From NCBI GenBank assembly GCA_945860785.1, contig CAMATD010000036.1, positions 1 through 32,281 on the forward strand: a stretch of 32,281 bases of DNA. Direction: 5' to 3'. The stretch comes from Variovorax sp. YR752 (GTDB lineage: Bacteria; Pseudomonadota; Gammaproteobacteria; Burkholderiales; Burkholderiaceae_C). Positions 3,836 to 25,207 of the stretch are shown in pieces; position 1 is the stretch's first letter; each line of letters opens with the position of its first letter. The notes below the pieces were generated by a model. That model saw nothing but the letters and a program-made list of their open reading frames with translations, had not been told where the DNA came from and did no database searches. The position numbers were made by a program, and so were the translations under genes.

Positions 3836-3841
3836 CAGGCA

Positions 3842-5107
3842 CTAGGCAAACACCAGGCACGCCGGCGTCGGCAGCTGGGCCACCTGCACCGGCTGGTCCA
3901 GCTTGCCGCTCGCGGGGTCGATGCGCAGGCGCAAGACGGTGTCGCCTTTCTGGCTGAGCGCGTAGAGATGGCTGCCACCGGGCGCCATCGCCAACGCGCG
4001 CGGAAAGCGCAGGCCTTCGCTCCAGTGCTGCAGCGGTGTCAGCGTGCCACTGCTCGCATCGATGCGGAACGCGGCGATGCTGTCCGCCATCGGATGGTCC
4101 GACTTCAACCGGCGATTGGTCGCGTAGAGAAATGGCCCCGAGGGATGCATCACCAGCGCCGCCGAGCTCTTCTGGCCGCTGAAGCCTTCGGGCACGGTGG
4201 AGACGCGCTGGCGTTGTTCCCCGACCTTGCCGCTCGCCGCGTCGTAGCCAAAGGAGGCGACCGTGGCGTCGAGTTCGTTCACCAGGTACACGAAGCGTTG
4301 CGACGGATGCAGCGCCAAGTGGCGCGGGCCGCTGCCGGGCGACACGGATGTGCGGCCTTGCAAAGCCAGCTTGCCGTCGGCGATCGTGAAGACATTGATG
4401 CGGTCGGTTCCGAGGTCGGTGGCGAGCAGGCGCTGGCCCGAAGCATCGAACAGCACCATGTGGGGGTGCGGCGATTCCTGGCGCTCCGCATCGGGGCCGG
4501 AGCCGGTTTCCTTCTCGATGCCCGAGACCTTGCCGAGCTTGCCGTCCGCGCCAATGGGCAGCACGTTGTACGCGTCGCCACCGTACAACGCCACCGCCAG
4601 TGCGCGGCCATCGGGCGACACGGCCAGGTGCGCCGGGATCACGCCCGACAGCGAGAGCGGCTGGCGGTTGAGCAGCGTCAGGCGGCCGTCCTGCGCATCG
4701 ATGGCATAGGCCTCTGCTGTTCCGGTGGGCAGGCCCTGGTAGGTGTCGATCTCGTTGATCGCGTACAGGAAGCGCTGGCTGGGATGCACCGCGAGGAACG
4801 AGGGGTTCGCGCTGGTGACCGATTGCACCTGCGTCCAGCCGCCGTCCTTGATGGCGAGCACATAGATGCCCTTCGACGCAGGCCCCCCAGCCGTGCCGCC
4901 TGGCGCGTCGCTGGTGTAAGTGCCGACGTAGGCAAAGCGTGGCACGGGTGCGTTGCTGGCGGCTGTGTTCGTCGCGGTCGCACCGGCGCCAGGGGTCTGC
5001 GCTCCGGCAGGGATCAACGGCGTCAACGCGCCGAGTGCGGAAGCGCCGCCGATCCACTGCATGACGGCGCGGCGTTTTTGACCGGGGTGACTGGGGCTGT
5101 GTGTCAT
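3842..5107 (-). CDS. Lactonase family protein, 6-phosphogluconolactonase-like 7-bladed beta-propeller, exported
   Basis: This 421-aa protein resembles YbhE/Pgl-type lactonases: FAYVGTYTSD at the mature N-terminus, GIYVLAIKDG, repeated blades with HPSQRFLYAINE and HPSGPFLYATNR, and PRALAMAPGGSHLYAL near the end. The first 36 residues form an export signal with KRRAVMQWIGG and a hydrophobic stretch ending in AGA, so it may go through Tat or Sec to the periplasm. The ATG at 5107 is chosen for its GAGAGG ribosome-binding site and the signal peptide directly after it; longer in-frame readings lack such signals. The likely role is hydrolysis of a sugar lactone. The neighbouring gene on the same strand encodes a sugar-oxidase-like flavoprotein, which would make such lactones. 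The substrate is not known. Confidence 0.83.
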   Translation of the reverse strand: MTHSPSHPGQKRRAVMQWIGGASALGALTPLIPAGAQTPGAGATATNTAASNAPVPRFAYVGTYTSDAPGGTAGGPASKGIYVLAIKDGGWTQVQSVTSANPSFLAVHPSQRFLYAINEIDTYQGLPTGTAEAYAIDAQDGRLTLLNRQPLSLSGVIPAHLAVSPDGRALAVALYGGDAYNVLPIGADGKLGKVSGIEKETGSGPDAERQESPHPHMVLFDASGQRLLATDLGTDRINVFTIADGKLALQGRTSVSPGSGPRHLALHPSQRFVYLVNELDATVASFGYDAASGKVGEQRQRVSTVPEGFSGQKSSAALVMHPSGPFLYATNRRLKSDHPMADSIAAFRIDASSGTLTPLQHWSEGLRFPRALAMAPGGSHLYALSQKGDTVLRLRIDPASGKLDQPVQVAQLPTPACLVFA

Positions 5108-5148
5108 GGGATTCCTCTCGTTAATGAGGGTGCTTGTGTTTGGGGTGC

Positions 5149-5241
5149 GTGCACAGGACACCGGGTGGCTCCCCTCCGCGAATGTCCCCCGCTTCGCTCC
5201 TCCTTTATTTCGTTGCGGGGAGCACCCGGTGCCCTGTGCAC
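5149..5241. repeat. Intergenic hairpin repeat (REP/MITE-like)
   Basis: The left arm at 5149-5174 (gtgcacaggacaccggg then tggctcccc) pairs with the right arm at 5217-5241 (ggggagcacccggtgcc then ctgtgcac) with about two imperfections. They enclose a 42-bp centre containing cttcgctcctcctttatt. It fills most of the gap between the oxidase stop and the lactonase start and has no coding potential. Long imperfect hairpins of this kind are typical of dispersed intergenic repeats; I see only this copy here, so family membership is inferred. It could also act as an RNA hairpin between the oxidase and lactonase cistrons. Confidence 0.6.
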
Positions 5242-5353
5242 AGTGGACGCTGCCGTGGTGCTGGCCGATCAACCACGGCTCTGAACGATCACACCGTCGG
5301 CGTGAGCGCGCCCTGAACAACGCACAACTTGAACTGAAGAGCCGGACTCCATT

Positions 5354-6886
5354 TCAGGGCCGCACCGACATCGCGTGATGAAAGATGTTGTTCGGGTCGT
5401 AGCGCCGCTTCACTTTCTGCAAGAAGCCATAGAGCCCTTGATCCCCGTAGTAGAGCTGCGACCAGAACGGGTACGCCAGCATGTCGTTGTCCGGATAGTT
5501 GATGTAGCAGCCCTCGTAGCGCTCGCTGGGATAGGGCGTTCCGGCATAGCGCTCGGGAACATCGGGCGTGCCGTACACATCGCGGTAGAAGTCGCTGATC
5601 CAGCGCAAGTGACCGGCATCGTCCTTGGCGCTGCGCCAGTAGGTCTGGTATTGCAGCTTCATGATCGACGCGCGTTGCGGCACCGCCGTGTCGTTGATGC
5701 GCTCGGGCTTGTTGATGGCGCCGCCATAGGAGTCCACCTGCACCAGCGACTGGCTCAGATCGACGCCTGGAATGACGCGCGTCAGGTGCGTGTAGATGCG
5801 CTGCGCTTCGCGGGCGCTGAAGTTCTGCTTCATGTAGCTCGACTTGTATTTGCCGCGCTGGGTGTCGCCCGATCCGTTGAGGTACTGCGTGGCCGTGAGC
5901 CAGTCGTAGCGCGTCACGGTGTGCGGCTTGGAACACAGCAGTTGCCCCGCATCGCGTTGCGGCGCCGGGCCCACGCCCGGTGCACAGCCCTTGAGGGGCA
6001 CCGGTGCGCAGGCACGGAAGCGATCGAGAAAATCGTTGAGCACCGTCAGGTCGTTGCAGGTGCCGTCGGGGTTGCAGAACTGCGTCAGCATCACGATCTG
6101 GCCCGACGAGCGGTGCGTGAGCTTGAGCAGTGAGAACCTGCCCCAGGTGTCGGGTGACTTGCCGCGTGTCTCCCAATATTCACCGTACGTGGAGAGCAGG
6201 GCGGCGAAGCGTTCGGGCGTCATGCTGGCCCAGTCGAACGCGACCACCGCGAGCGCCACCTCGCGCGGTGCTGTCGGCAGGGTGTCGAACACGTAGTTGG
6301 TGATCGCGCCGAAGTTGCCGCCGCCCGCGCCGCGACAGGCGCGAAACAGCTCGGGCTCGTGGGTCGCATCCACGGTGCGCGGCACCACCTTGCCGTGCGT
6401 GTCCACCGTCAGGATGTCCACCGCGGAGAGCCAATCGACCGTCAACCCCTGCAGGCGCGACAAGAGGCCGTAGCCGCCGCTGCAGATGTGTCCGCCCGCG
6501 CCGACCGAGTAGCACGAGCCGCCGGGCAGGGTGACGTTGCTGCGCTTGTACAGATCGAGGTATTCGTTCCAGTTCTGCGTGCCGGGGCCGATGCGATAGC
6601 GCCCGTCGTTCTTGCCGCCGGCACCCGCCTGGGTGAGCAGGCTCAGGTCGAGGATCGCGCCTTCGGGATTGTTGGCAACAAAGTCTTCATAGCAATGTCC
6701 ACCGCTGCGCAACGTGGGCCGAAGGCCTGCGTCGACGATGCGCTGCAAGGCGGTGGCTGCGTCGCCGGCGTTCTCCGCCAGTTCGATGCGCGAAGCCGCA
6801 TCCGATTCCGTTGCAGGCCATCGCAGATTGAAGCCCTTTTTCAAGGTGTTGTAGCGAGCATCTTGGCGTGTCACGGTGATGGTCAT
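5354..6886 (-). CDS. FAD-binding oxidoreductase with BBE domain (bicovalent flavoprotein oxidase)
   Basis: This 510-aa protein has a PCMH-type FAD domain (about residues 30-215) and a C-terminal berberine-bridge-enzyme segment ([18 protein letters not shown] near the end). H64 in [11 protein letters not shown] and C125 in [13 protein letters not shown] occupy the positions that bind FAD through both 8-alpha-histidyl and 6-cysteinyl bonds in this family. Such enzymes oxidise carbohydrates to lactones or other alcohols using oxygen, giving hydrogen peroxide. No signal peptide is seen. The ATG at 6886 is preferred to the GTG at 6895 because an AGAAAG lies upstream at suitable spacing. It is followed after 246 bp by the lactonase on the same strand, suggesting an oxidase-lactonase pair; substrate is unknown. 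Confidence 0.85.
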
Positions 6887-7013
6887 GTGCAGCACTTTCT
6901 GATGGATGTCTTGCGACGATGGAAGTCGGAGAGGGAGAAAGCCTGCATGGCTTCCGGTGAACTTGAAAATGAAATATTTTTTCTGAATCTCCTTGAATCG
7001 AAGTGGAAATCAC

Positions 7014-7032
7014 GCAATATCGACAATATTGC
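7014..7032. promoter_or_regulatory. Palindrome in AT-rich promoter region (candidate operator)
   Basis: GCAATAT-CGACA-ATATTGC is a perfect 7-bp inverted repeat around a 5-bp centre, about 130 bp upstream of the oxidase start, in the most AT-rich stretch nearby. The form suits a dimeric regulator such as a LysR, TetR or GntR protein, but none is encoded next to it. Function is inferred. Confidence 0.35.
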
Positions 7033-7090
7033 CGTTATTTTTGGAATTGTTGAAATATATTTTCATGGATTGGCAAAGGATCGGCGGCCT

Positions 7091-7168
7091 CCCAAGTTGA
7101 CCGGTATGGCCGCGCAACTTGCGCATCGCTGACCGCTGCCTGCTGCGCGTCGGCACCATGGCCGATGC
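7091..7168 (+). pseudogene. Relic of a D-aminoacylase gene (C-terminal fragment)
   Basis: This stretch aligns with 3585-3664 in the deacylase gene: aagttgaccggtatggccg matches aagatgaccggcatgaccg, and the following bases match the codons for NLRIADR and LLRVG. Identity by eye is near 80 percent, with a 2-bp deletion in the GCGCGC run that breaks the frame. There is no surrounding deacylase sequence. It is probably the last remnant of a second deacylase copy, on the same strand as the hydrolase gene. Confidence 0.6.
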
Positions 7169-7380
7169 CCCGATGAGCCCGCGCTTGCAAATCGCTAACA
7201 CAAATGGATGCAACAATGTTGCGTCTATGCGAGGGAGAGGTGCATGACCCGACGGGCCGGCTGTCACGCCGCAGCCTGTGGTGGCGCACGCGTTCCCGGA
7301 CATTCAGACGACAGTCAAGGGGCGCTGTTCGTTATGCGACCAGCACGCCCTCATCGTGCATTGAGTCAGGGAGAGAGGAT

Positions 7381-9780
7381 TTGAAAGTCAGATGTGCAAA
7401 GCGCGCGCCGCAGGCGTGCGCGCTTTTTCTTGTGTTTGCATTGCTGGGCGGATGCGGTGGTGGCAGTGGTGGGGGAGCGCGATGCCATTCGCGCTGACAC
7501 AGCCAACACCTTCCAGTACGGCCGACCCCGCGGAGCAGCCCGCCGCGCCCGCTCCGACGGCCCCGGTGTCCGTCATGCCGAACCCTGCGGACCCCTCCGA
7601 AATCACGCGGTACTCGGCCACCGTGCCTTTCGGCGAGAAGGGGAGCTTCGTGGCTTCGGATCAGGTCGTCTACAACTTCGGCACCACGGCCGTGTCCGAT
7701 GAGCTGAACACGGACGTGATCTACCAGGTGCCTTTGCGAGGCACGGTGAGATATCCCGACCGGCAACGCCGGTACGCCAGGCGCGTCCAGGGTTCAGGTC
7801 TCGCCATCGGGCTGTTATCCGGTGGTGGTGTTCCTGCATGGCATGCATGATGATCAAGAACTCGAAAACGCCAAAGGCTACGACTACCTGCAGAAGGATC
7901 TGGCCGAGAACGGCTACGTGGCGTTCTCCATCGACGCGGCAAAAATCAACGGCCTCAGCAATGTCAACGCATCCGATGCTGGCGCACTCGCGCGTGGCCA
8001 GTTGCTCATGACAACGCTCGATCTACTGCGCACGGGCAACGCCACCGGCATATTCAATGGCGTTGCACTGGCGGAGCTCAAGGGGAAGCTGGATCTCGAC
8101 CGGGTGGGCATCCTCGGGCACTCGCGCGGTGCGGAAGCGGTCGCCTATGCGGTGGAACTGAACAAGCAACGCATCGGGATCAGTTACCTGGACGTCGCAA
8201 TGGCGCGCAAAAGTTACCTGGACGCCGACACGCAAATCACCATATCCCAGGCAAAGGTGAAGCAAGATCAGCAAGATGTGGACGCAGCCACGACTGCCGC
8301 CAACGCGGCGGCCGCGGAGTTGGCCAAGGCGCTGAGCGCACTTGTCGCACTGCCCGCGGGCTCACCTTCCATCACATCCGCAACACAGACCGTGGCGCAG
8401 CGTCTCAGCGAAGCGAAGGCGGCGCAGGCGAAGCTCGTCGTAGAGAAGGCCGGGCTGGAAGCGGACACGGCAACGCTCCGGTCTCTTCAGGCGTACCACC
8501 CCATCAACTCAAACAGCAAGACGTGGCTGGAGGCGTCGAATTCCCCCACTGCGTTGACGCAATCCGGAATCGTGCTGCCACCCAGCAGCGAACCGCCGCA
8601 CAAGATACGCGCGGTCTTTTCCGTGGCTCCGATCAATGCCAAGCAGCTGTCGCACGTGACCCACGTTCCGTTTGCCACCCTGTTGCCTACCTGCGATGGC
8701 GACCTCTACGACATGCCCGGCGCGCAGATCTTCGACGACAGCCGCTACACCGCAGACGACGAAAGCGCACCGAAGTATCAGGTTGTCGTCAGGGGTGCGA
8801 ATCACAACTTCTACAACAGCCACTGGGCTGAGGGGGACGATTCGGAAAATAGAGCGCCTCTCTATTGCAAGGCGGGAAAAATCGAGACGCTGCGCCTGAG
8901 TCCGTCTGACCAGCGGCGCAATGGTGCCTTTCTGATGGAGTCGTTCATGCGCTACTTTGTCGGCGACGAAATTCAGTTCGCACCATATTGGAAAGGGCAG
9001 GCACCAATTCCGACCGCTGGATGTCCGGCTGGCGAGACCAGTTGCAACGAGCGCGTGGTCCTGACCATCCATCAACCGGTGGCACAGCGCAAACTGCTTC
9101 AAAACTTCCGCAATACCGACAGCAGCGCGAAGAATCCGAGTGGACTGTTGACGCTGTTCGAAGCGTTCAAACAAACCGTGCAATGCCAGTTTCTGGGAAA
9201 TGTATTGACTTCATGGGATGCCCCATCCAGGGCGGTGGCATGTACCGATCCCGTCACCAGTCTCTCCAGCAACTCCCTGTTCACTGAAGGTGAGAATTAC
9301 CATCCTTCCACTTATGACAAGAAGACGCTGCTGAACTGGTCAGTCACGGACCAGGCCCAGTTGCAGTGGGACGCTCCCGGCCCGACCATGACCGTCAACA
9401 CCGGCGATCTCTCGGCCAAGGGCTTCGACACCCTCAGCTTCCGTGTCGCCGTCGAGGCGCCGATTGGACAAGAGGTCGAGGTGTCCTTGATCGATACACA
9501 GGATCGCACCGTGGCATTGAAGGGCAGCGATTTCAGCGATGCGCTCTACAACATCGCGCGCAAGCCGAACGGAACGATCCCGCTGGTCGACGCGCCTGAA
9601 GATGCGATCTACGCCGACACCGGCACCATGCGTCCGTTGTTGAACATGGTGGCCGTGCCCCTCAAGGCGTTCGCGCTGCACGAGGTGGACCTGGACCATA
9701 TCAAGCAGGTGAAGTTCCGGTTCCCGAAAGCCTCGGGCAGCGTGGCGGTGACGGACGTCCAGTTGCAGCGCATGGACTGA
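7381..9780 (+). pseudogene. Lipoprotein alpha/beta hydrolase with coiled-coil-like insertion, two compensating frameshifts
   Basis: The repaired product is about 799 aa. A TTG start at 7381 follows an AGGGAGAG site and opens a lipoprotein signal (FLVFALLGGCGGG). The frame then breaks in the G run at about 7479-7483 (one G short). The second frame reads through a Pro/Ala-rich linker and a domain ending VPLRGTVRYP. An extra base near 7759 returns it to the first frame, giving PTGNAGTPGAS and VVVFLHGMHDD. Hydrolase motifs are FLHGMHDD (oxyanion region), GILGHSRGAEA (nucleophile Ser, about 8112-8126) and VVVRGANHNFYNSHW (probable catalytic His). Residues encoded by about 8224-8500 are Ala/Lys/Gln-rich and look helical. 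A beta-rich C-terminal region follows. The natural substrate is unknown; cell-envelope ester hydrolysis is inference. Confidence 0.7.
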
Positions 9781-9795
9781 TTTGCAGGAGGAACG

Positions 9796-9818
9796 AGGCG
9801 GTGCCTCCGGCATCGCCT
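9796..9818. terminator. Hairpin between convergent genes (candidate bidirectional terminator)
   Basis: AGGCGGTGCC-TCC-GGCATCGCCT forms a 10-bp stem with one G-T pair and a 3-base loop, 16 bp after the hydrolase stop and before the end of the carbonic-anhydrase gene on the other strand. No strong T-run follows, so intrinsic termination would be weak. Confidence 0.45.
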
Positions 9819-9885
9819 TGAACGTTCATTTCAGCGTGCGTTGTTCCAGGTAGAAGACGCTGCAGGGATGGACTCCCGCCGATCT

Positions 9886-10449
9886 TCAGAGATCTTTTTC
9901 GATGCGCTTGTAGCCCTGCACCAGGCCGTTGTTGGTACGCGCCACGTCCTCGGAGAACTCACTGGCTTCGGCTGTGACCTTGGGAACCTGGGTCAAGTCG
10001 GTCGCAGGTCCGATGCGTTCGCTCGAAGGTACGTAGAAGCCGGGAGGCAAGTCCTGTCCGTCGACGACGGCGTTGTGGCGCACGACACACCCGGCACCGA
10101 CATTGCAGTTGAAGAGCACGCTGTTGAAGCCGATGAAAACGCCGCTTCCAACCTCGCACGGTCCGTGAACGATGGCGCGGTGGGCGATGGACGTGCGTTC
10201 GCCGATGGTGACGGCCGCACCCGACTTGGAGTGGATCACCACGCCATCCTTGATGTTGGAATGGGCACCGATCACAATGGGTTCCATGTGCCCGTCGGCA
10301 TCGACCTCGTCGGCGCGGATCACAGCATAGGGGCCAATGAAGACGTTTTCGTGCACGACCACCCGACCACACAGGATGGCGGTCGGGTCGACAAAGGCGC
10401 TTTCGTGCACCTGGGGTCTGTGGCCTTGCGGATTGATGCGAATCACCAT
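9886..10449 (-). CDS. Gamma-class carbonic anhydrase family protein
   Basis: This 187-aa protein is a left-handed beta-helix of hexapeptide repeats (AFVDPTAILCGRVVVHENVFIG and so on). All three zinc ligands of gamma-carbonic anhydrases are present: H73 in NIKDGVVIHS, and H90 and H95 in SIAHRAIVHG. It should interconvert CO2 and bicarbonate, or be a related metal-bound acyl-type enzyme, in the cytoplasm. It is last in the metal importer operon. The ATG at 10449 is chosen because the protein match begins there; a TTG at 10488 directly after the binding-protein stop is an alternative, and neither has a clear ribosome-binding site. Its place behind a zinc-type importer suggests a form made when metal is short. 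Confidence 0.82.
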   Translation of the reverse strand: MVIRINPQGHRPQVHESAFVDPTAILCGRVVVHENVFIGPYAVIRADEVDADGHMEPIVIGAHSNIKDGVVIHSKSGAAVTIGERTSIAHRAIVHGPCEVGSGVFIGFNSVLFNCNVGAGCVVRHNAVVDGQDLPPGFYVPSSERIGPATDLTQVPKVTAEASEFSEDVARTNNGLVQGYKRIEKDL

Positions 10450-10488
10450 GTTCGGGACGATCGGGCGCTTGCCAGCAGGTGCGAGCAA

Positions 10489-11379
10489 TCAATGCTGGCC
10501 GGCAGACAACGCGCTGGTAATGGTCAGCGCATTGTGGGCGAACAGCTTCAGGTAGGTGTCGGCCTCCGTGCCCGGGGGCGACAGCGCATCGGAATAAAGC
10601 CGGCCGCCGACCGCGGCACCACCTTCGCGCGCGATGCGCTCGACCAGGCGCGGGTCGGTGATGTTTTCGACGAAGATGGCACGCACGTCCTGATGGCGGA
10701 TCTGGTCGATCAGCCGCGCGACGACGGCGGCAGAGGCTTCGCTGTCGGTGCTCATGCCCTGAGGCGCCAGAAACTCAACGCCATAGGCCGCGCCGAAATA
10801 GCCGAATGCGCCGTGCGAGGTGATGATTTTGCGGCTGTCTTTCGACACCGCAAAAAAACGTGCTCGCACCTTGTCGTCGAGCGCCTGGAACTGCTGGATG
10901 TAGATTGCCGCACGTTGCTCGAAATGCGCCGTGCTTGCCGGCCGCGCAAGGCTCAGCGCGTCGCGCACGTTCTCGGCATAGCGTACGGCGTTGCTCAGGT
11001 CCTGCCAGGCATGCGGATCGGGTTCGCTGCCCCGCAAGCGCGCGGCGATGCCTTTGCTTGCCACCACCACCGGGCCGCGGTAGCCCGAGGCGCTCACCAG
11101 GCGATCGAGCCAGCCTTCGAAACCCAGTCCGTTGATCAGGACCAGCTGCGCCTGGGCCAGGCGCAGCGCATCGGCCGGGCTGGGCTGGAAGACGTGGGCA
11201 TCGGCGCCGGGGCCGACCAGTGCGGCAACCTCGACATCGTCGCCGCCGACGTTGCGCACGATGTCGGCCAGGATGGAAAAACTGGCGACGACACGCAATG
11301 GACGTGCTGACTGAGCCAGCGTGGGGGCGGCCGCGAGGGCACAAAGCATGGCAACCGCGGATCGACGGGATGGATTCAT
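10489..11379 (-). CDS. Metal ABC transporter substrate-binding protein (ZnuA/TroA/AztC-like, cluster A-I)
   Basis: This 296-aa periplasmic protein has a signal peptide (about 1-22, ending TLAQS) and the two-lobed metal-binding fold. The four ligand positions are visible: H62 in DAHVFQPS, H123 in DPDPHAW-type context (EPDPHAWQD), H189 in ITSHGAFGYF, and an acidic residue near D264 in SDALSPPGTEADTY. There is no long His-rich loop as in classic ZnuA, so zinc is likely but manganese is possible. The start at 11379 lies one base after the permease stop, so the genes are coupled. It would deliver the ion to the permease encoded just upstream. Confidence 0.88.
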   Translation of the reverse strand: MNPSRRSAVAMLCALAAAPTLAQSARPLRVVASFSILADIVRNVGGDDVEVAALVGPGADAHVFQPSPADALRLAQAQLVLINGLGFEGWLDRLVSASGYRGPVVVASKGIAARLRGSEPDPHAWQDLSNAVRYAENVRDALSLARPASTAHFEQRAAIYIQQFQALDDKVRARFFAVSKDSRKIITSHGAFGYFGAAYGVEFLAPQGMSTDSEASAAVVARLIDQIRHQDVRAIFVENITDPRLVERIAREGGAAVGGRLYSDALSPPGTEADTYLKLFAHNALTITSALSAGQH

Positions 11380-11380
11380 T

Positions 11381-12268
11381 TCAGACAGTCCGATGAGAAC
11401 GACGCCCCAGGCGCCAAAGCAGGCCGTCGTGCGGCCCGGCGAGCAGTGAAAAAAGATAGGCCGCACCGGCCACCAGCACGATGGCCGGCCCGGAGGGCCA
11501 TTGGGCGTGGAACGAGAGCAGCAGCCCGGCGAAGCCGGACAGCACCGAGATGCCGCCCGCGACCAGGGCCAGGCTCCAGACCTCGCCAGTCCAGAAGCGT
11601 GCCGCGGTGGCCGGCAGCATCATCAAAACCACCGCCATCAGGGTGCCCAGCGCCTGAAAGCCGGCCACCAGGTTTGCCACGGTGAGCACCAGGAATGCGC
11701 CATGAACAAGATGGCCCCGGCCACCCACATTGCGCAGGAAGCCCGGGTCGAGGCATTCGACGATCAGAGGCCGGTAGAGCACCGCCAGTGCAACCAGCGT
11801 CAGACTCGCGACACTCGCCATGAGCAGCAACGCGGCGTCGTCGACCGCGAGGATGGTGCCGAACAGCAAGTGCATCAGGTCGACGCTGCTGCCGTGGGTG
11901 GACACCAGCATCACGCCCAGCGCCAGGGCGATCAGGTAGAAGGCCGCGAAGCTTGCATCCTCGCGCTGCGCGGTGACGCGCGTCACATAACCGGCGGCCA
12001 GCGCCACGGCGAGCGCAGCAATGAAACCGCCCGCGCTCATCGCCGACAGCGAGAAGCCCGCGACGATGAAACCCAATGCAGCACCGGGCAGCAGGGCGTG
12101 GCCCATCGCGTCGCCCATGAGACTCATGCGACGCAGCACCAGCAGCGTCCCGATGGGCGCGCTGCCCATGCTCAGCGCCAGCGTGGCGACCAGCGCACGG
12201 CGCATGAAACCATAGTCCGCAAACGGCTGCAGCAGCAAGGAGGAGGGCGTCACGCTGCTTGCCGCCAT
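11381..12268 (-). CDS. Metal ABC transporter permease (ABC-3 family)
   Basis: This 295-aa inner-membrane protein has about eight hydrophobic segments and the ABC-3 landmarks FMRRALVATLALS, LRRMSLMGDAMGHALLPGAALGF (start of the core) and LGTLMAVVLMMLPATAARFW. It forms the channel of the zinc/manganese-type importer. Its ATG overlaps the end of the ATPase gene by 19 bp. No damage is seen. Confidence 0.88.
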   Translation of the reverse strand: MAASSVTPSSLLLQPFADYGFMRRALVATLALSMGSAPIGTLLVLRRMSLMGDAMGHALLPGAALGFIVAGFSLSAMSAGGFIAALAVALAAGYVTRVTAQREDASFAAFYLIALALGVMLVSTHGSSVDLMHLLFGTILAVDDAALLLMASVASLTLVALAVLYRPLIVECLDPGFLRNVGGRGHLVHGAFLVLTVANLVAGFQALGTLMAVVLMMLPATAARFWTGEVWSLALVAGGISVLSGFAGLLLSFHAQWPSGPAIVLVAGAAYLFSLLAGPHDGLLWRLGRRSHRTV

Positions 12269-13008
12269 GCGAGCGGGGCGTCATTCCAGGCTTCGGCCAT
12301 TTGGCGCGCGCGACATAGATGTTCGGCGCTCAGCACCTCGGCTGTCGGGCCCCAGGCAATGCAGCGCCGCGCCATCAGCAGCGTGCGGTCGAAATGCAGC
12401 CGGACCTGCTCCAGGTCGTGCAGCACCGCAATCACGGTGCGCGCTTCGGCATGCCAGCGTGCCACCACCGCCAGCAGGTCGGCCGTGGTGCGCGCGTCGA
12501 TGGCATTGAAGGGCTCGTCGAGCAGGATCACCGACGCGTCCTGCAGCAACACGCGTGCGAACAGTACTCGCTGGAACTGACCGGCGGACAGCTCGGCAAT
12601 ACGGCGATGAGCGAAGCCATCGAGGCCGACTGTCGCCAGGGCATGAGGCACCGCGTCGCGCTGAAGTGTGGTCATGCCCTTGAAGGAACTCAATCGACTC
12701 CAGTGGCCGAGCGCGACCAGATCGAAGACGCGAATCGGAAAACTGCGGTCGATCTCGGCCTGCTGCGGCAGCCACGCAATGCGGCCGCCTGGACCGGCAT
12801 CGAACCGGACGTCGCCGTGGCTCGGTTGCACCCGGCCCATGATCGCGGCCAACAGGCTGGTCTTGCCGGCACCGTTGGGGCCGACGATGGCTGTCAGGGA
12901 GCCTGCATCGAATTCGCCCGACAAGGCATGCACAGCCGGACGCCCGCGGTAGGCAACGGTCAAATTCCTGAGGGTGATGGCCGCAGGAGCTGCGAGAGCG
13001 GTGTTCAT
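12250..13008 (-). CDS. Metal ABC transporter ATP-binding protein
   Basis: This 252-aa ATPase has Walker A GPNGAGKT (43-50), a Q-loop in AWLPQQAEIDRSFP, signature LSAGQ (140-144), Walker B VILLDEP (about 160-166) and a switch His in VLHDLEQ. The PQQAEIDRSFP segment is typical of zinc/manganese importers. The ATG at 13008 overlaps the stop of the preceding small reading frame as TGATG. It powers the neighbouring permease. Confidence 0.9.
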   Translation of the reverse strand: MNTALAAPAAITLRNLTVAYRGRPAVHALSGEFDAGSLTAIVGPNGAGKTSLLAAIMGRVQPSHGDVRFDAGPGGRIAWLPQQAEIDRSFPIRVFDLVALGHWSRLSSFKGMTTLQRDAVPHALATVGLDGFAHRRIAELSAGQFQRVLFARVLLQDASVILLDEPFNAIDARTTADLLAVVARWHAEARTVIAVLHDLEQVRLHFDRTLLMARRCIAWGPTAEVLSAEHLCRARQMAEAWNDAPLAWRQAA

Positions 13009-13241
13009 CAGCACAGGGCCCAGATGACGGCGAGCCACAACCCGAGGAGTCCTGTCAGCGTGCCGAGCACACGTTTGCACAGGCCGGTCATCAGCAGGCT
13101 CTTCGGCGCAACCCTGGGCCTCATGACCAACCCCCGCAGCGCGCGTTGCGCGAGTTCGCAGACTTTCTGAAGTGTGGGTGACTGACGGTTTTCCGAAAGT
13201 GCAGTCGGCACGGCGCTGCGTCGGCGGGTATGGTGTTCCAT
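13008..13241 (-). CDS. Small hypothetical protein with C-terminal membrane segment, first in metal operon
   Basis: A 77-residue frame from ATG 13241 whose stop overlaps the ATPase start as TGATG. The first half is basic and polar. The last 25 residues (VLGTLTGLLGLWLAVIWAL) form one clear membrane helix. I do not recognise a family. The predicted transcription start lies at or next to this ATG, so it would be leaderless, or the real start lies further in (ATG codons precede RPRVAP and TGLCKR). It might be a small accessory membrane protein of the importer or only a translated leader. Confidence 0.4.
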   Translation of the reverse strand: MEHHTRRRSAVPTALSENRQSPTLQKVCELAQRALRGLVMRPRVAPKSLLMTGLCKRVLGTLTGLLGLWLAVIWALC

Positions 13242-16023: not shown

Positions 16024-16946
16024 CAACGTTCCCCCTTGCGATACGGCTTCATCAGCGCTTGCGGATAACTGGCCTTGCGCGCCACCAGCACCAGCGCGAG
16101 GATCGACAGCAGGTACGGCAGCATCAGGTAGATCTGGTAGGGCAGCACGGCATCGCCCGATTGTTGCAGCCGCAGTTGCAGCGCGTCGAAGAACGCGAAC
16201 AGCAGCGCGCCGAGCAGCGCCTTGCCGGGCCGCCACGAGGCGAACACCACCAGCGCCACGCAGATCCAGCCGCGGCCGTTCACCGTGTTGAAGAAGAAGG
16301 CGTTGAAGGCAGAGAGCGTGAGGAACGAACCCGCGACACCCATCAGCGCCGAGCCCGCCACGATGGCGCCGGTGCGCGTGGCCGCGACCGACACGCCCTG
16401 GCTCTCGGCCGCCTGCGGGTTCTCGCCGACCATGCGCAGCGCGAGGCCGAGCGGCGTGCGGTACAGCACACAGCCCACCACCGGCACCAGCAGCAGCGCG
16501 AACAGCGTGAGCGCGGTCTGTGCGTTCAATATCGGTACCGGCAACCAGTCCATCGGCGCGAAGGGCGTGATGGTCGGCGGCGTGTTGACCTTCGGAAAGC
16601 TCACGCGGTAGCCAAAGTAACTGAGCGCGGTAGCGAGCAACGTAATGCCCAGCCCCGAGACGTGCTGCGAGAGCGCAAGACCGACCGTGAGAAAGGCATG
16701 GAGCAACCCGAACACCATGCCTGTGAGCGCTGCCACGCCAACGCCCATCCACAACGGCGCACCGGCATACACCGCGAGCCATCCCGTGAAGGCGCCCGCG
16801 ACCATGATCCCTTCGATGCCGAGGTTGAGCACGCCCGCGCGCTCGCACAGCAGCACGCCGAGCGTGCCGAGGATCAGCGGCGTGGCGATGCGCAGCACCG
16901 CGACCCAGAAGGCGGGGTTGGCGAGGATGTCGAGCAGGTCGGTCAT
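16023..16946 (-). CDS. Nucleoside (BMP-type) ABC transporter permease, second subunit
   Basis: This 307-aa membrane protein has the branched-chain-permease fold found with BMP binding proteins: TPLILGTLGVLLCERAGVLN, LGIEGIMVAGAF, LSQHVSGLGITLLATALSYF, and GENPQAAESQGV (the EAA-like cytoplasmic loop contacting the ATPase). It forms half of the channel for nucleosides. In operons of this type it follows the other permease gene. Here the other permease (17910-18971) faces the opposite way because the segment between is inverted. Its start at 16946 is 9 bp from a REP-like repeat. Confidence 0.88.
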   Translation of the reverse strand: MTDLLDILANPAFWVAVLRIATPLILGTLGVLLCERAGVLNLGIEGIMVAGAFTGWLAVYAGAPLWMGVGVAALTGMVFGLLHAFLTVGLALSQHVSGLGITLLATALSYFGYRVSFPKVNTPPTITPFAPMDWLPVPILNAQTALTLFALLLVPVVGCVLYRTPLGLALRMVGENPQAAESQGVSVAATRTGAIVAGSALMGVAGSFLTLSAFNAFFFNTVNGRGWICVALVVFASWRPGKALLGALLFAFFDALQLRLQQSGDAVLPYQIYLMLPYLLSILALVLVARKASYPQALMKPYRKGER

Positions 16947-16955
16947 CGGGTATTT

Positions 16956-16991
16956 CTCCCTCCCCTTCCGGGGGAGGGTTGGGGTGGGGGC
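16956..16991 (+). repeat. REP-like repeat at inversion edge (left copy)
   Basis: CTCCCTCCCC-TTCC-GGGGGAGGG stem followed by TTGGGGTGGGGGC. It resembles the copies at 18995-19030 (same orientation in this window) and 19738-19762 (stem only). Copies of this kind are common dispersed intergenic repeats in proteobacteria. It lies between the permease start and the broken ATPase half. Confidence 0.6.
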
Positions 16992-17910
16992 GCGCACGGC
17001 CGACACGACGCAAGCCCAGCTCGCGCTGTGGATGGTCGGGCATGCGGTCGAGGCGCCGCAGCGCCGGCCGGCCAGATCGGTGGGCGATGCGGTCTGCGTG
17101 CTCGACCATGTGAGCACCGCATCGGCCAAGGACGGTGGGCAGGACCGGCTTCGCGAGGTGTCGCTCACGCTGCGCGCCGGCGAGATCACCGCCATCGCAG
17201 GCGTCTCGGGCAACGGCCAGGTCGCGCTGGCCGAGCTGCTGTGCGGCACACGCCGCGCCATTTCCGGCACGGCGCAGCTGATGGGCCGTGCGCTGCCGCC
17301 CTCGCCCGCCCGGCTGGTGCAGCGGGGCGTGGCGCGCATTCCCGAAGACCGTCATGCAGTCGGCGTAGTGGGCGATCTGCCGGTGTGGGAGAACGCGGTG
17401 TCCGAGCGCCTGCGCAGCCCGGTGTTCTCGCGCTGGTCGTGGTTCGTGCGGCGCACGGCCGCTCGGCTTCACGCCCGGCGCATCGAAAAAGCATTCGACG
17501 TGCGCGGCGCCGGCCTGATGGCACCGGCTCGCTTGCTTTCTGGCGGGAACATGCAGAAACTGATCCTGGGGCGCGCACTGCTGGCACCCGAGCAGGCGGA
17601 AGACGCCGACAACAAGAAGTACCCGACCCGCGCGCCGCGCCTGATCGTGGCGCATCAGCCGACGTGGGGCCTCGACATCGGCGCCGTCGCCTATGTGCAG
17701 CAGCAGCTCATCGCCGCGCGCGATGCCGGTGCGGCGGTGCTGGTGATTTCCGACGACCTCGATGAAGTGCTTGCGCTCGGCGACCGCGTGGCCGTGATGC
17801 ATGGCGGCCACCTCGGCGAAGCGCGCCCAGCCGCGGCATGGACGCGTGAAGCCATCGGACTGGCGATGGCTGGCGCGACAGCACCACAACGAACGGCGGT
17901 CTCCTCGTGA
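16987..17910 (+). pseudogene. Nucleoside ABC transporter ATPase, C-terminal half (separated by inversion)
   Basis: About 307 residues forming the second nucleotide-binding domain of a tandem ABC ATPase of the RbsA/YufO type. They begin TADTTQAQLALWMVGHAVEAP, the usual linker after the first domain. It has the degenerate Walker A of second domains (GVSGNGQVALAELLCG), signature LSGGNMQKL, a modified Walker B (LIVAHQPTWGLD) and VISDDLDEVLALGDR. There is no start codon or ribosome-binding site at its left edge, only REP sequence. The stop overlaps the permease start as TGATG. It cannot make a working ATPase alone in this order. Confidence 0.85.
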
Positions 17911-18971
17911 TGTGGCTCGAACGACGCCACGAGACCTCGCGCGCAGCGCTGGTGTTGGCGCCCGTCGGTGCGGTCGTGTTCACGATGGCGGTGAGCGCGC
18001 TGCTCGTGCTCTGGGCCGGCGCACCGGTCGGCCGCACATATGCGTTGTTGCTGCAGGGCGGCTTCGGCTCGGTGTTCGCATGGAGCGAGACGCTGACGCG
18101 CGCGATTCCGCTGATCCTCACCGGACTGGCCGCCACGGTCGCCTTCAAGGTGCGACTTTTCAACATCGGCGCCGAGGGCCAGCTCTATGCCGGCGCGCTC
18201 GCAGCCGTGGCCGTGGGCGGCATGCATGGCGGCACGGGCTTCGAGCTCTCGCCCTGGGTGCTGTTCCCGCTGATGATGCTGGCGGCGGCCGTCGCAGGCG
18301 CCCTGATGCTGCTGGGCCCCGCGCTCATGAAGAACAAGCTCGGCGTCGACGAGGTCGTGACCACGCTGCTGATCAATTTCATCGTGCTGCTCGGCGTGTC
18401 GGCCCTGCTCGACGGGCCGATGAAAGACCCGACCGCCATGGACTGGCCGCAAAGCGTGTCGCTGCAGTCCGACCTGGAGCTGGGCAAGCTCATTGCCCAG
18501 ACGCGCGTGCACACCGGGCTGCTGTGGGCCGTGTCGCTCGCGGTGATCGTGTGGGCGATCTTCAAGTACACCGTGCTGGGCTTCGACATCCGCGCGGTCG
18601 GCGCCAATGCGCGCGCCGCGGCCTTTGCCGGTGTGCCAGTCACGCGCACCGTGGTGATGGTGGCGCTGCTCTCGGGTGCGCTGGCCGGGCTGGCCGGCGC
18701 CATCGAGGTGGCGGGCCGCACGAGCTACGTCACGCTCGACATGTCGCCGGGCTACGGCTACACCGGCATCGTGATCGCGATGCTCGCGGGACTGCACCCG
18801 CTGGGCGTGATCGCCGCGGGCGTGTTCGTGGCGGGCGTGCTGGTCGGCGCCGACACCATGAGCCGCGCGGTGGGCGTGCCGACCTACATCGCCGACGTGA
18901 TCGTCGCGGCCTCGCTGATCGCGGTGCTGGTGGCGACGCTGCTGACGCAATACCGGGTGCGGATGAAATGA
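17910..18971 (+). CDS. Nucleoside (BMP-type) ABC transporter permease, first subunit
   Basis: This 353-aa inner-membrane permease has a large first loop, then LFNIGAEGQLYAGALAAVAVGG, KNKLGVDEVVTTLLINFIV, and VGANARAAAFAGVPVTRTV (EAA-like loop), followed by GRTSYVTLDMSPGYGYTGIV. These are characteristic of the larger permease of nucleoside/BMP importers. It pairs with the permease at 16023-16946. The ATG at 17910 overlaps the ATPase stop; a GTG at 17907 would add one residue. It is intact but lies in the inverted segment, so the operon promoter upstream of 25207 would read it antisense. Confidence 0.88.
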   Translation: MWLERRHETSRAALVLAPVGAVVFTMAVSALLVLWAGAPVGRTYALLLQGGFGSVFAWSETLTRAIPLILTGLAATVAFKVRLFNIGAEGQLYAGALAAVAVGGMHGGTGFELSPWVLFPLMMLAAAVAGALMLLGPALMKNKLGVDEVVTTLLINFIVLLGVSALLDGPMKDPTAMDWPQSVSLQSDLELGKLIAQTRVHTGLLWAVSLAVIVWAIFKYTVLGFDIRAVGANARAAAFAGVPVTRTVVMVALLSGALAGLAGAIEVAGRTSYVTLDMSPGYGYTGIVIAMLAGLHPLGVIAAGVFVAGVLVGADTMSRAVGVPTYIADVIVAASLIAVLVATLLTQYRVRMK

Positions 18972-18994
18972 CCGAGCTGGCTCCTCCGGATTTG

Positions 18995-19030
18995 CTCCTT
19001 CCCCCGCTGGGGGAAGGCCGGGATGGGGGC
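18995..19030 (+). repeat. REP-like repeat at inversion edge (right copy)
   Basis: CTCCTTCCCCC-GCT-GGGGGAAGG stem followed by CCGGGATGGGGGC, the same pattern and direction as 16956-16991. It sits 23 bp after the permease stop. After re-inversion it would oppose the left copy, as REP pairs usually do. Confidence 0.6.
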
Positions 19031-19057
19031 ATCGGCCTCCACGACGAGCGCCGCGTG

Positions 19058-19727
19058 CCCCCGCCACGAGCTTGCCGCCGCGCAGCACGGCGATGCGGTG
19101 CGACACGCGTAGCACCTCGCCGAGCTTGTGACTGATGAAGATCACCGACAGGCCCTGCGCCACCATCTGCGCGAGCGTGGCGAAGAGTGCTTCGCTTTCT
19201 TGCGGCGTCAGCACGGCGGTCGGCTCGTCGAGGATCAGGATGCGCGCGCCGCGGTACAGCGCCTGGAGGATCTCGACGCGCTGGCGCTCGCCGACCGAGA
19301 GGCTGCCGATCTTCGCGTCGGGCTGCACCGGCAGGCCGAAGCGCTGCGCCACTTCGAGCAACCGGGCGCGTGCGGCCGCGCGGCGCGAGAAAGGGTTCCA
19401 CAGCGATTCGGTGCCCATCATCACGTTGTCGAGCACGCTGAGGTTGTCGGCCAGCGTGAAGTGCTGGTGCACCATGCCCACGCCTGCGGCGAGCGCGGCC
19501 TTGGGGTTGCCCGAAGGCAGCGGCGCACCAAACACCTCGATGCTGCCTTCGTCGGCGACGTAGTGGCCGAACAGGATCGACATCAGCGTCGACTTGCTGG
19601 CGCCGTTCTCTCCGAGCAGCGCCAGCACTTCGCCGGCCTGCAGGTCGAGAGAGATCGCGTCGTTGGCCACGAGGCTGCCGAAGCGCTTGGTGATGCCCTG
19701 GAGGCGGAGAACAATGGTGCCGGTCAT
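19058..19727 (-). pseudogene. Nucleoside ABC transporter ATPase, N-terminal half (separated by inversion)
   Basis: About 222 residues of the first ABC domain: ITKRFGSLVANDAISLDLQ, Walker A region GENGASKST, Q-loop GMVHQHFTLADNLSVLDNV (typical of nucleoside/BMP ATPases), signature LSVGERQRVEI, Walker B ILILDEPTAVLTP and FISHKLGEV. After VLRGGKLVAGAR the frame runs into unrelated and REP sequence, where the inversion breaks the gene. The Walker A has Ser (AGC) where most family members have Gly before the invariant Lys; one G-to-A change explains it and could weaken ATP use. The start at 19727 follows the nucleosidase by 46 bp. Confidence 0.87.
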
Positions 19728-19737
19728 GAAGGTCTTG

Positions 19738-19762
19738 CTCCTTCCCCCGGAAGGGGAGGGAG
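19738..19762. repeat. REP-like hairpin between nucleosidase and ATPase genes
   Basis: CTCCTTCCCCCGGAAGGGGAGGGAG is a near-perfect hairpin in the 46-bp gap before the ATPase start and resembles the stems of the two REP-like copies at the inversion edges. It may act as an RNA hairpin between cistrons. Confidence 0.5.
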
Positions 19763-19773
19763 TGAAAGCGGGA

Positions 19774-20730
19774 TCACTTCCAGGCGGCCAGGAACGCCAG
19801 CATCACCTTGGCCGAGTTGTCGGCCGCGATGCCCATGAAGGTGCCCATCTCGTTCTCGCCGTCGCCGCCGCCCGCGAGGTCGCTGAGCGAGCGGAAGGCG
19901 ATGTAGGGCACGCCGTTGCTGTAGGCCACCATGCCCACGGCCGCGGTTTCCATGTCGAGGACGTTGGCCTGGAAGGTCTTGTAGGTGTATTCGCGATAGG
20001 CCTTGTTGTCCATGAAGGCCTGGCCCGAGACGCCATTGCCGCCGACCACGAGCTGCGGCTTGCGCGGGAGGCACTTGCCGGCGCTGCAGTTGGCCAGGTC
20101 GACATTGCGGATGCTGCGCGCCACGTCGAGCATCTTCGGATCGGCCTCGAACCAGAACTTGCGCACGATCTCGGGCTTCGCCGCCGAGCGCACCTCGACC
20201 GGACGCGGATGCATCATGCCGAAGTTGGGCAGCGTGGCGTCGGTGATGAAGGGCGGTGCGGTGAATTTGCCGGGCGCGGTTTCGCGTGCCATCAGCACTT
20301 CGAGGTACTGGCCCCATTGCGCGGGCACCGTCACGTCGCCGACGTGCAGCGACGGATTCACGCCGCCCGCGATGCCGCTGAACACGATGTTGGTGATGCG
20401 AAAGCGGTTGAGCACGAGCTGCGTGTTCATGGTCGCGTTCGTCATGCTGATGCCGGAGAGGAACAGCACCACGGGCTTACCTTCGAGCGTGTCGGTGGTG
20501 AACTCCACGCCGTTCACGCTGTGCTTCGCGGGCCCCTGCAGGCGGGCCAGCAGCAGCGTGAGTTCGGGCTGGAAGGCCGAGATCACCGCGATGCGCGGCG
20601 TGTCGTCCAGGCGGATGCTGCTGTTGATGCTGGCACTGGGCGACCTGTAGGCACCGATGCAGCCAGACAGGCTGATCAACCCGGCCGCCAGCGCGCAGGC
20701 GGAAAGCACAGAACGCCAGCGCATGGTCAT
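19774..20730 (-). CDS. Exported lipoprotein nucleosidase/phosphorylase (MTA/SAH nucleosidase-like)
   Basis: This 318-aa protein has a lipoprotein signal (ACALAAGLISLSGC, lipid Cys C24) and a nucleoside phosphorylase-type domain. The domain shows RIAVISAFQPELTLL, NIVFSGIAGG and HVGDVTVP. LDMETAAVGMVAYSNGVP and FRSLSDLAGG supply the nucleoside-binding Glu and the base-protonating Asp of the MTA/SAH nucleosidase family. It would split nucleosides to base and sugar in the periplasm. The ATG at 20730 has a GAGGG site and begins 8 bp after the binding-protein gene. In this operon a role in freeing bases from nucleosides is likely, but purine versus pyrimidine preference cannot be read. Confidence 0.83.
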   Translation of the reverse strand: MTMRWRSVLSACALAAGLISLSGCIGAYRSPSASINSSIRLDDTPRIAVISAFQPELTLLLARLQGPAKHSVNGVEFTTDTLEGKPVVLFLSGISMTNATMNTQLVLNRFRITNIVFSGIAGGVNPSLHVGDVTVPAQWGQYLEVLMARETAPGKFTAPPFITDATLPNFGMMHPRPVEVRSAAKPEIVRKFWFEADPKMLDVARSIRNVDLANCSAGKCLPRKPQLVVGGNGVSGQAFMDNKAYREYTYKTFQANVLDMETAAVGMVAYSNGVPYIAFRSLSDLAGGGDGENEMGTFMGIAADNSAKVMLAFLAAWK

Positions 20731-20738
20731 CGCGGCCC

Positions 20739-21740
20739 TCACTTTGCCGTCGACTTCGGTTGCGCGTCGTCCACCTTCACGGTGAACTTGCCCGAGAGGA
20801 TGTCGGCCTGTCTGGCCTTCACCTTGGCGACGATGTCGGCCGGGATCTTCTTCTCGAAGGTGCCGAACGGAGCGAGTTCCGAGCCCTTGTGCTTCATCTG
20901 GGCATACACACCATAGTCTTCGGCCGTGAACTTGCCTTCCTTCACGAGCTTGATCGCACGGTCGGCAGCGGGCTCGAAGTTCCACAGGGCCGAGGCGACC
21001 ACCGTGTCGGGGTACTGGCTCTGCGTGTCGATCACGTTGCCGATGGCGAGCTTGCCCTTTTCCTTGGCGGCATCCGACACGCCGAAGCGCTCGGCGTATA
21101 TCACGTCGGCGCCCTTGTCGATCATGGCAAAGGCCGCTTCCTTGGCCTTCGGCGGATCGAACCAGCTGTTGATGAAGCTCACGCTGAACTCGACCTTCGG
21201 GTTCGTTTCCTTGGCGCCGGCCATAAGGGCGTTCATGAGCCGGTTCACTTCGGGAATCGGAAAGCCGCCGACCATGCCGATGCGGTTGCTCTTGGTCACG
21301 CCGCCGGCCACCATGCCGCTCAGGTAAGCCGGTTCCTAGATGAAGTTGTCGAACACGCTGAAATTGGGCGCCTGTGGCTTGAGCGACGAGCCCATCAGGA
21401 AGGCGACCTTGGGGAAATCCTTCGCGACCTTGCGTGCCGCCGCTTCCACGCCGAACACCTCGCCGAGGATCAGCTGGTTGCCGCCGGTGGCGTACTCGCG
21501 CATCACGCGCTCGTAGTCGGCGTTGCTGACGTTCTCGGTGGCCTTGTATTCGATCTCGCCGCGCGCCTCGGCCGCCTTGAGCGCCTTGTGGATGCGGCCG
21601 ACCCATTGCTGCTCGAAGGGCACGGTGTACACCGCCGCCACCTTGAGCTTGGCCTGCGCGAGCGCGATGCCCGGCGCGCCGGCCGCAAGGGCGGCGGCAA
21701 TGGCGACCGAACGAATGATCAACTGACGGCGTGCTGTCAC
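20739..21740 (-). pseudogene. BMP family nucleoside-binding protein, interrupted by an amber codon
   Basis: Full coding span of 333 codons. The GTG start at 21740 follows a strong GAGGAG site, then a signal peptide (RRQLIIRSVAIAAALAAG and ALAQA). The BMP (Med/PnrA-type) domain follows: LKVAAVYTVPFEQQWVGRIHKAL, SNADYERVMREYATGGNQLI and GVEAAARKVAKDFP, then after the break MVAGGVTKSNRIGMVGGFPIPEVNR and GADVIYAERFGVSDAA. A TAG at 21338-21336 (codon 135) sits in frame between NFI and EPAYLSG; a CAG-to-TAG change would explain it. There is no indel. It is the periplasmic receptor for the nucleoside importer encoded downstream. Confidence 0.86.
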
Positions 21741-21817
21741 GGTGCTTCTCCTCGAGGTATGAAAATCTTCTTGTGCCATCCCGTCGGACAGCTGGACGAC
21801 CGCCAGGGGGCGTCGGG

Positions 21818-22481: not shown

Positions 22482-23878
22482 CTAAAAGACGGTGCCGTCG
22501 CTCTCGATCTGCAGCGGTGGTGCTCCGTCACGCAAGCGCTGTGCCAGCGCCCGGCCGGCGGCCCAGGTGCCGCCTTCGAGCACGCAGGCCAGCGGCAGTT
22601 CTTCTTCGGTGCGGTCGAGCACCTTGCGCACGCGCGGCGCCAGTTCGTCGAGCAGCGCCACGGTGAGCGCGCGCCATTCGACGATGAACTCGTCGCTCGC
22701 CTTCCAGCGGCGGGTGAGAAAGGTTGCCTCCTTCGGCACGATCACGCCGCTGTCGATCAGGAGGCCGCCGTTGCGGTACTCGGGCAGGGCGGTCAGCGCA
22801 TCGAGATGGCGCACCTTCACGCCCGCCCATTCGAAGGGTTCGAGCAGCGAGTAGGTGAGCCACTGCGAGAGCTTGTGGAAGGGCATCCAGCCGTTGGTGA
22901 GCCCGGGGCCGCGCACCGCGCTGTGACGCCAGCAGTCGCCGAGCGCCAATGCCGGGTCGCCCGAGGCGATGCCGCCGGCGTTGTCGCTGCCGTTGATCGC
23001 GATGCTGTCCACCGCATTGGCCGAGGGCCAGATGCGCGAGAGCGTGTCGAGCAGCAGCGAGAGGATCTGGTGCGCCGTGATCTCGGCGGTGGGCGGCGCG
23101 GCCGGGCCGTAGGGACCGACCAGCGCGTCGAAGAGGCGTCCGGGCCGGCCGTCGTCGCCGAAAGTCTCGGGCTGCTCGCTCATCGTCTCGCCGAGCCGGC
23201 GCAGCAGCGTGGCGCGACCCGCCAGGCCGATCAGCGGATTGACTTCGCTCACCTGGAAGGCGTCGCCCAGCCGGTCGGTCACGAGGCCGCGCAGGCCGGC
23301 CGCATCGGCCTGCAGCGGATGGTTGGGGTCGGACGAGAAAAGCCCGCTCGTGAAGGCATGGAAGCTCGCCACGCCAAGGCCTTCGGAGCGCGTGTAGCGC
23401 TCGCCGGTGGCCGGTTCGGTGTAGTGCCAGTCGGGGCCTGCACCCGCATCGAGCAGCACGCTGACCAGCACGAGGTCGATGTGCGTGCGGGCGCGCTGCC
23501 GGGCATCGACGCTGTTGCCGAGCAGCTTGTCGAGCTGTTTGAGCCGATCGATGCCGCCCGCCTCGAAGTGACGCCAGCGGCTGTGGTACGGAATGGTGTC
23601 CCAGGGATAGCGCTCGCGCGTGACCTCGGCGACGGTGCGCGCCGCGTCTTCGAGCGCATCGTCGCTGCCGATGCGGAACCATTGCGACTCGCCCCGGCGC
23701 GCACGCGCCAGCAGGGCGCCCGCCCGCTGGCGGATGGCGGCGGTGGTGCGCAGCAGCGTGGCCGCGCCGGCCGGGTGGCTGGTGTCCGCGGTGAACTCGA
23801 TCGACGGATCGACATTGCCCGCGCCGCCTGGCCGCAGGCTGCCGGAACCATCGACGGGCATGTCCTTGCTGTTGCTTG

Positions 23879-23882
<4 letters not shown>
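22482..23882 (-). CDS. DUF1688 family protein, URC4/urg3-type (uracil catabolism)
   Basis: This 466-aa protein matches the DUF1688 family, which includes yeast URC4 and fungal urg3. Typical stretches are [64 protein letters not shown] and [19 protein letters not shown]. The family is required for uracil breakdown through the URC route; its reaction is not one I can state. Its ATG overlaps the stop of the URC1-like gene as ATGA, and upp follows after 34 bp. No signal peptide or membrane segment is seen, so it is cytoplasmic. Confidence 0.86.

Positions 23883-25207
<1,325 letters not shown>

Follow-up and report, generated by a model that had tools for sequence, protein, structure and literature searches.

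The window analysed here, 32,281 nucleotides in length, is the entire contig C36 of the draft genome of a soil-type bacterium, Variovorax. It carries one operon that probably encodes a nucleoside importer, a transport role that we assign from the protein families and the neighbouring genes. According to profile matches, the gene set of a BMP-type importer is complete, with PF02608, two PF00005 domains and two PF02653 permeases (Table 1). On the minus strand, the order is binding protein, PNP-like protein, N-terminal half of the ATPase, an interruption and permease 2; permease 1 and the C-terminal half of the ATPase are located on the plus strand, between the N-terminal half and permease 2. NupNOPQ of Bacillus subtilis and RnsBACD of Streptococcus are importers of this BMP/PnrA type. 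The operon resembles them in its PF02608 binding protein, tandem PF00005 ATPase and two PF02653 permeases, and in the relatives these genes are intact and in the usual order. Different from such importers, neither the ATPase nor the binding protein of the window is intact: the ATPase is split by an inversion and has lost its Walker A glycine (G44S), and the binding-protein gene is interrupted by a stop codon. The open frame of the N-terminal half, 678 codons long, extends into antisense sequence; annotation of this frame calls for caution.

Table 1. Features of the importer operon and of the inverted segment (window coordinates).
Feature	Coordinates	Strand	Family match and remarks
Permease 2	16026-16946	-	PF02653, 120.8 bits; outside the flip, in ancestral orientation
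REP/BIME spacer, second half, formerly between permeases 1 and 2	16946-16995	-	Left junction GGGGGCGCGC at 16986-16995
Inverted segment	16986-19062		2,077 bp including both copies of the 10-bp match
ATPase, C-terminal domain half, severed from its start	16987-17907	+	PF00005, 43.6 bits
Permease 1	17907-18968	+	PF02653; frame intact; G179D
REP/BIME spacer, first half (first REP and linker), moved with permease 1	18970-19062	+	Right junction GCGTGCCCCC at 19053-19062
ATPase, N-terminal domain half	19059-19727	-	PF00005, 108.4 bits; Walker A GENGASKS (G44S)
PNP/nucleosidase-like protein, same operon	19777-20724	-	PF01048, 137.8 bits
BMP/PnrA-type nucleoside-binding protein	20742-21755	-	PF02608 on either side of an in-frame TAG at 21336-21338

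The importer is adjoined by genes for one DUF1688 protein and one GTP cyclohydrolase II-like protein (22485-25207), both presumably members of the uracil-degradation pathway, and an amidohydrolase is also among the neighbouring genes. This neighbourhood suggests a uracil or pyrimidine degradation setting, which fits nucleoside uptake.

The draft genome comprises 6.2 Mb in 445 contigs, with a completeness of 86.8% and a contamination of 4.6%, and the named loci nearest to the window are from Variovorax. Besides a partial second rpoB and a second bamA (contigs C416 and C133), the assembly gave no match to rplB anywhere; contamination together with missing contigs is the likely reason. Owing to all these features, the quality of the assembly is not high. 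No second copy of the operon was found in it.

Comparison with relatives and the two junctions

The operon was compared with 80 loci from named relatives, which are not all independent because some are near-duplicates of a single strain. In 78 of the 80 loci both halves of the ATPase fall within one continuous alignment, and the remaining two loci are cut by contig ends. Stop codons are present in four of the 78 ATPase alignments, every one at the natural C-terminal end. Permease 1 lies on the ATPase strand in all 78 relatives, less than 300 bp away in 77 of them, and the permease 2 orthologs are encoded on the same strand as both. The inverted arrangement is present in none (0/78). When the window was aligned with seven relatives, each represented by 40 kb of sequence, the block from 16989 to 18978-19068 had the opposite orientation in all seven, and the remaining aligned blocks longer than 400 bp had a single orientation. 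In eleven alignable stretches of nine other contigs of the same genome, no further inverted block of more than 400 bp was observed.

These comparisons bear out the structural part of the first-pass annotation, which had placed the ATPase halves on opposite strands, had described the segment as inverted with the ends listed in Table 1, had located the inverted match at exactly the two junctions, and had argued that flipping the segment back would give both permeases the usual order and direction; ATPase, permease 1 and permease 2 are indeed collinear in the relatives. It had also proposed that rejoining at the match restores the reading frame through VAGAR. In fact, rejoining at the 10-bp match yields one open frame of 529 codons, so this part holds; however, the product is probably not the exact ancestral protein, since the relatives mostly have VAEAR or VAQAR. 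At the junction residue, Glu is found in 54 of the 78 relatives, Gln in 22, Asn in one and a gap in one; Gly, the residue of the rejoined window, is found in none.

The spacer between the permeases was examined in the same manner. After rejoining it is 136 bp in length, and it can be aligned over its full length to the orthologous spacers in the relatives as well as to further BIMEs of this genome; GCGCCGCGTGCCCCCACCCC, which runs across the rejoined spacer join, is also present in some of the relatives' spacers. With the 10-bp match counted once, zero spacer bases were lost. This full-length alignment shows the inversion to be balanced; one of its ends lies in a REP-type repeat and the other in the interdomain linker of the ATPase.

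We also searched for the un-inverted ATPase junction. Allowing up to 3 mismatches, its pattern was found at seven places in the assembly, compared to five for a reversed-pattern control, and none of the seven is a real un-inverted junction: the left junction itself accounts for one, and the remaining six are in stretches that lack any ATPase or permease match. In a junction-directed protein search, which scored 7,972 candidates and gave 1,254 matches, coverage of the query region does not exceed 36% for any of the 120 matches listed. Among the intact ATPases listed, drawn from a database clustered at 90%, the closest has 95% identity, and no sister strain above 97% identity is among those listed. 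Within the reach of these searches, the inversion appears to be private to this genome.

The two junction copies, GGGGGCGCGC (16986-16995) and GCGTGCCCCC (19053-19062), form an inverted match of 10 bp with nine identical positions. In 200,000 draws, random inverted pairs of 10-mers from the window reached at least 9/10 identity with a frequency of 1.05e-4, and the match is non-random at the present breakpoints, though part of it was probably made by the event. The permease-side break is situated in a BIME, a spacer built from two palindromic repeats that face in opposite directions. Each repeat occurs dozens of times in the genome, and a search of 1.60 Mb of other contigs gave 12 matches to the paired form. 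The repeats are thus REP/BIME-like in being paired, opposed and present in many copies, and also in being extragenic, a property checked for the operon spacer. One lone REP-like palindrome is located at 19733-19762, between the PNP-like gene and the start of the ATPase; with this additional palindrome, the operon has REP sequence at three places.

The ATPase-side break is located in the linker that follows the first ATP-binding domain, where the relatives have GTGGC-N-GAG-GCG-CGC or similar, encoding VAEAR or VAQAR. The glycine of the rejoined window may be explained in either of two ways. A Glu to Gly change in this species may have preceded the flip, or the REP core GGGGGC may have been copied to both junctions with a few ATPase bases lost. 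We favour the latter, according to which the inverted match would be largely the product, not the cause, of the event; the identity shared beforehand was probably about GGC plus scattered bases. In each copy, the mismatched base is the one that the relatives have in the corresponding old flank, which places the exchange on the GGGGGC side of the mismatch.

Broken genes in the operon and in the genome

In addition to the inversion, the operon carries changes at conserved positions. The TAG codon at 21336-21338 in the binding-protein gene replaces a Gln codon present in 67 of the 67 relatives that cover the site; Gly44 of the Walker A motif is conserved in 78 of 78 relatives covering it; and Gly179 of permease 1, Asp in the window, is Gly in all 80 loci. 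Both ATPase halves and permease 1 remain open frames, and decay of the halves themselves is not evident. Several independent, presumably inactivating changes, namely the inversion, the stop codon and the Walker A change, are thus found in one operon, which judging from the sequence is probably dead in either orientation.

Private nonsynonymous/synonymous counts in the window, a possible sign of relaxed selection, are raised only modestly, and some other genomes are equally high. The private changes were also inspected for a signature of uniform sequencing error or DNA damage. C>T and G>A changes make up 56% of them, which falls inside the range of 17 other sequences (17-68%), so that the spectrum does not discriminate. 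By HMM alone, possible frame changes were called elsewhere in the window, at 2996, 7566, 25772, 28868 and 30402.

Broken frames are frequent in the sampled part of the genome as well. A coding-frame HMM applied to 1.63 Mb, the window included, called 97 in-frame stops and 265 frame breaks; as 1.476 Mb of this is coding sequence, the rates are 66 stops and 180 frame breaks per Mb coding. The same HMM found 9 stops and 35 frame breaks in 0.625 Mb of control Variovorax. Because it also counts some natural gene junctions, only the excess over the controls is used here. Fifty of the HMM stops are TAG in this genome, compared to none in the controls. With a simpler stop count, 26 stops were found in 0.43 Mb, compared to 6 in 0.24, 2 in 0.24 and 2 in 0.20 Mb of the controls; two of the ten control stops are TAG.

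The sequences flanking the stops were matched to protein families. For 7 of 15 pairs, the two halves match consecutive parts of one family, the broken families being a dipeptidase, an aminotransferase, a histidinol dehydrogenase, an efflux outer membrane protein, a sensor kinase, an indolepyruvate oxidoreductase and a dipeptide-type ABC ATPase. Of the other pairs, four have a one-sided match, one has no match, and three are plainly neighbouring genes. Comparison with 68 orthologs, for which some of the reference frames look like spurious antisense ORFs, revealed 13 with an internal stop and 8 with a frame change; the corresponding control numbers (stop plus frame change) are 4+1 of 31, 2+1 of 30, 2+1 of 9, and 0 of 32 in five further sets.

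The housekeeping genes are different. We compared 32 orthologs of E. coli reference genes, which we take to be essential; over 12.8 thousand codons, they contain no stop and no frame change. From the excess rate about 6.7 breaks would be expected in this set, and the Poisson chance of finding none is about 0.001. The set derives from 81 reference genes, 33 of which were matched at 35% identity or higher; fusA, a non-ortholog, was dropped. Two genes, truB (residues 1-238 of 314) and lpxD (3-295 of 341), were counted over the matched part, and rplJ comes from contig C416, which may be a contaminant. Five rows with less than 35% identity (tufA, murD, bamA, lpxA and rbfA) were left out of the count, and no stops were found in these weaker matches. 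The excess of breaks is genome-wide but spares the 32 housekeeping orthologs, which makes decay a likelier cause than uniform sequence error. The genome may be losing genes, possibly at an early stage of genome decay. Among the titles retrieved by a literature search on Variovorax with pseudogenes and symbiont, none was on this subject.

Several further loci were observed along the way. On contig C11, an intact mra cell-wall cluster lies alongside a broken murC paralog (34% identity), which contains one TAG (C11:39736-40887). Private substitution counts in the mra cluster are not decisive and give the general picture only, as several gene starts in that comparison are set too far upstream. A second BMP-type binding protein (L155:11114-12664; C2 around 51,100-52,700) may be cut near its start by TAG; the family match is in the downstream piece only, and the gene lies beside an ATPase and a permease (C2:52789 and C2:54340). 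Among the dipeptide/nickel-type ABC genes at L161:1573-5493 (C7), the ATPase has one TAG with matches on both sides, and the permease perhaps has a stop near its start, with a match on one side only. On C60 (L280), around 3,400-13,100, five neighbouring genes in a run have stops or frame changes relative to orthologs.

Origin of the inversion

Three causes had been listed in the first-pass annotation: a fixed rearrangement, a reversible switch and a misassembly. The first is the best supported and the other two less so. We consider it likely that the segment is a fixed, inactivating inversion, the best reading of the data, in which case the cellular DNA would have the order of the assembly. 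Taken alone, such an inversion is a loss-of-function rearrangement of known type. Inversion-type pseudogenes in decaying genomes are a general class, and the window resembles them: a small inversion interrupts one of its genes, in a genome where nonsense changes and frame breaks are numerous and the housekeeping genes are spared.

An artefact of assembly or library preparation, through misorientation of one 2-kb piece or assembly of a chimeric read family, is improbable in our judgement, though it deserves weighing: the assembly is a contaminated draft, one end of the segment is in a REP repeat with dozens of copies, and among the relatives and protein matches listed the inversion is present in this assembly alone. 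However, the identity between the two ends is limited to 10 bp with one mismatch, and before the event it was probably confined to GGC and scattered bases, which is too short for a k-mer join by an assembler. Both junctions are reciprocal and the window is free of Ns, whereas amplification chimeras usually yield one junction; moreover, the inversion is the only one seen in the stretches and contigs compared above. The first-pass annotation had slightly favoured misassembly on account of other single-base faults in the window. Such faults occur genome-wide, yet the 32 housekeeping orthologs are spared, so that the single-base lesions behave like real mutations, and gene decay accounts for them better than poor sequence quality does.

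A reversible switch (inverton) that toggles nucleoside uptake, the other cause that had been raised, is very unlikely. Intragenic inversions are a known class, reportedly described among invertible DNA by Chanin and colleagues in 2024 (as cited in PMC11868660), and the window is inverton-like in its balanced, flipped segment with one end inside a gene, in the short inverted match at its ends and in the in-frame rejoin. Different from invertons, the match is short and imperfect, and the genome has dozens of copies of its REP side; the 25 window frames scanned (7 + 10 + 8, four of them without any family; the window has 120 ORFs of at least 100 residues) gave no match to a recombinase or invertase family. 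There is also no sign of both orientations, given that none of the 78 relatives is inverted and the un-inverted ATPase junction is lacking from the assembly, and flipping back would produce VAGAR, a sequence found in 0/78 relatives. Because of the lesions in the binding protein, the Walker A motif and permease 1, a switch would have nothing to switch; with the first two the importer would be dead even in the on state. Our literature search on bacterial 'intragenic inversion' with inverted repeats returned only Drosophila work. We give hardly any credence to a split but functional ATPase, with the halves acting as separate polypeptides, as they do where an importer has two ATPase genes. Each half retains an open frame, but no start was seen at the junction for the C-terminal half, its frame opening at an ATG inside antisense permease 2 (16645); the N-terminal half lacks the Walker A glycine conserved in the relatives, and the binding protein is truncated.

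The fixed, inactivating inversion may have arisen as follows. In this Variovorax lineage, the REP/BIME spacer that separates permease 1 from permease 2 would have been broken, and so would the linker joining the two ATP-binding domains of the one ATPase that the importer has. Two double-strand breaks, or one REP-centred break plus a second site, could have been repaired by minimal-homology joining, and the ends rejoined in flipped orientation, which would give a balanced inversion of about 2.07 kb. We infer that only about 3 bp of prior identity (GGC) are certain, and the REP core GGGGGC would now stand at both junctions. The ATPase would be destroyed by this event: in the assembled order its N-terminal half reads into antisense permease sequence, and its C-terminal half, together with permease 1, points away from the operon promoter. 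The loss of function is most likely fixed, in an operon that also has the binding-protein nonsense codon and the Walker A change, and in a genome with many broken genes. The locus would then be a clear example of how a small balanced inversion, anchored at one end in a REP/BIME spacer, destroys an operon, and the ancestral sequence can be read from dozens of relatives. The genome itself, a Variovorax with unusually many broken genes, is worth attention as a possible instance of early genome decay.

It is conceivable, though rather doubtful, that the junctions are the footprint of a REP-directed staggered cut, possibly made by a REP-associated transposase, that was joined to a non-REP site. Such a cut could have left GGGGGC at both ends, removed a few ATPase bases and flipped the intervening DNA. 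The window resembles REP/BIME- and RAYT-linked rearrangements in that one breakpoint lies in paired, opposed palindromes with dozens of copies and a candidate transposase family is represented in the genome; RAYT activity could, according to one paper on these transposases, account for various rearrangements (PMC2817692). Different from such rearrangements, the other breakpoint in the window is not a REP. If the REP-directed cut were true, REP spacers would be seeds of small, operon-breaking inversions in decaying genomes. The candidate family is PF01797, which we take to be the class that includes the REP-associated transposases, and the genome contains one match to it.
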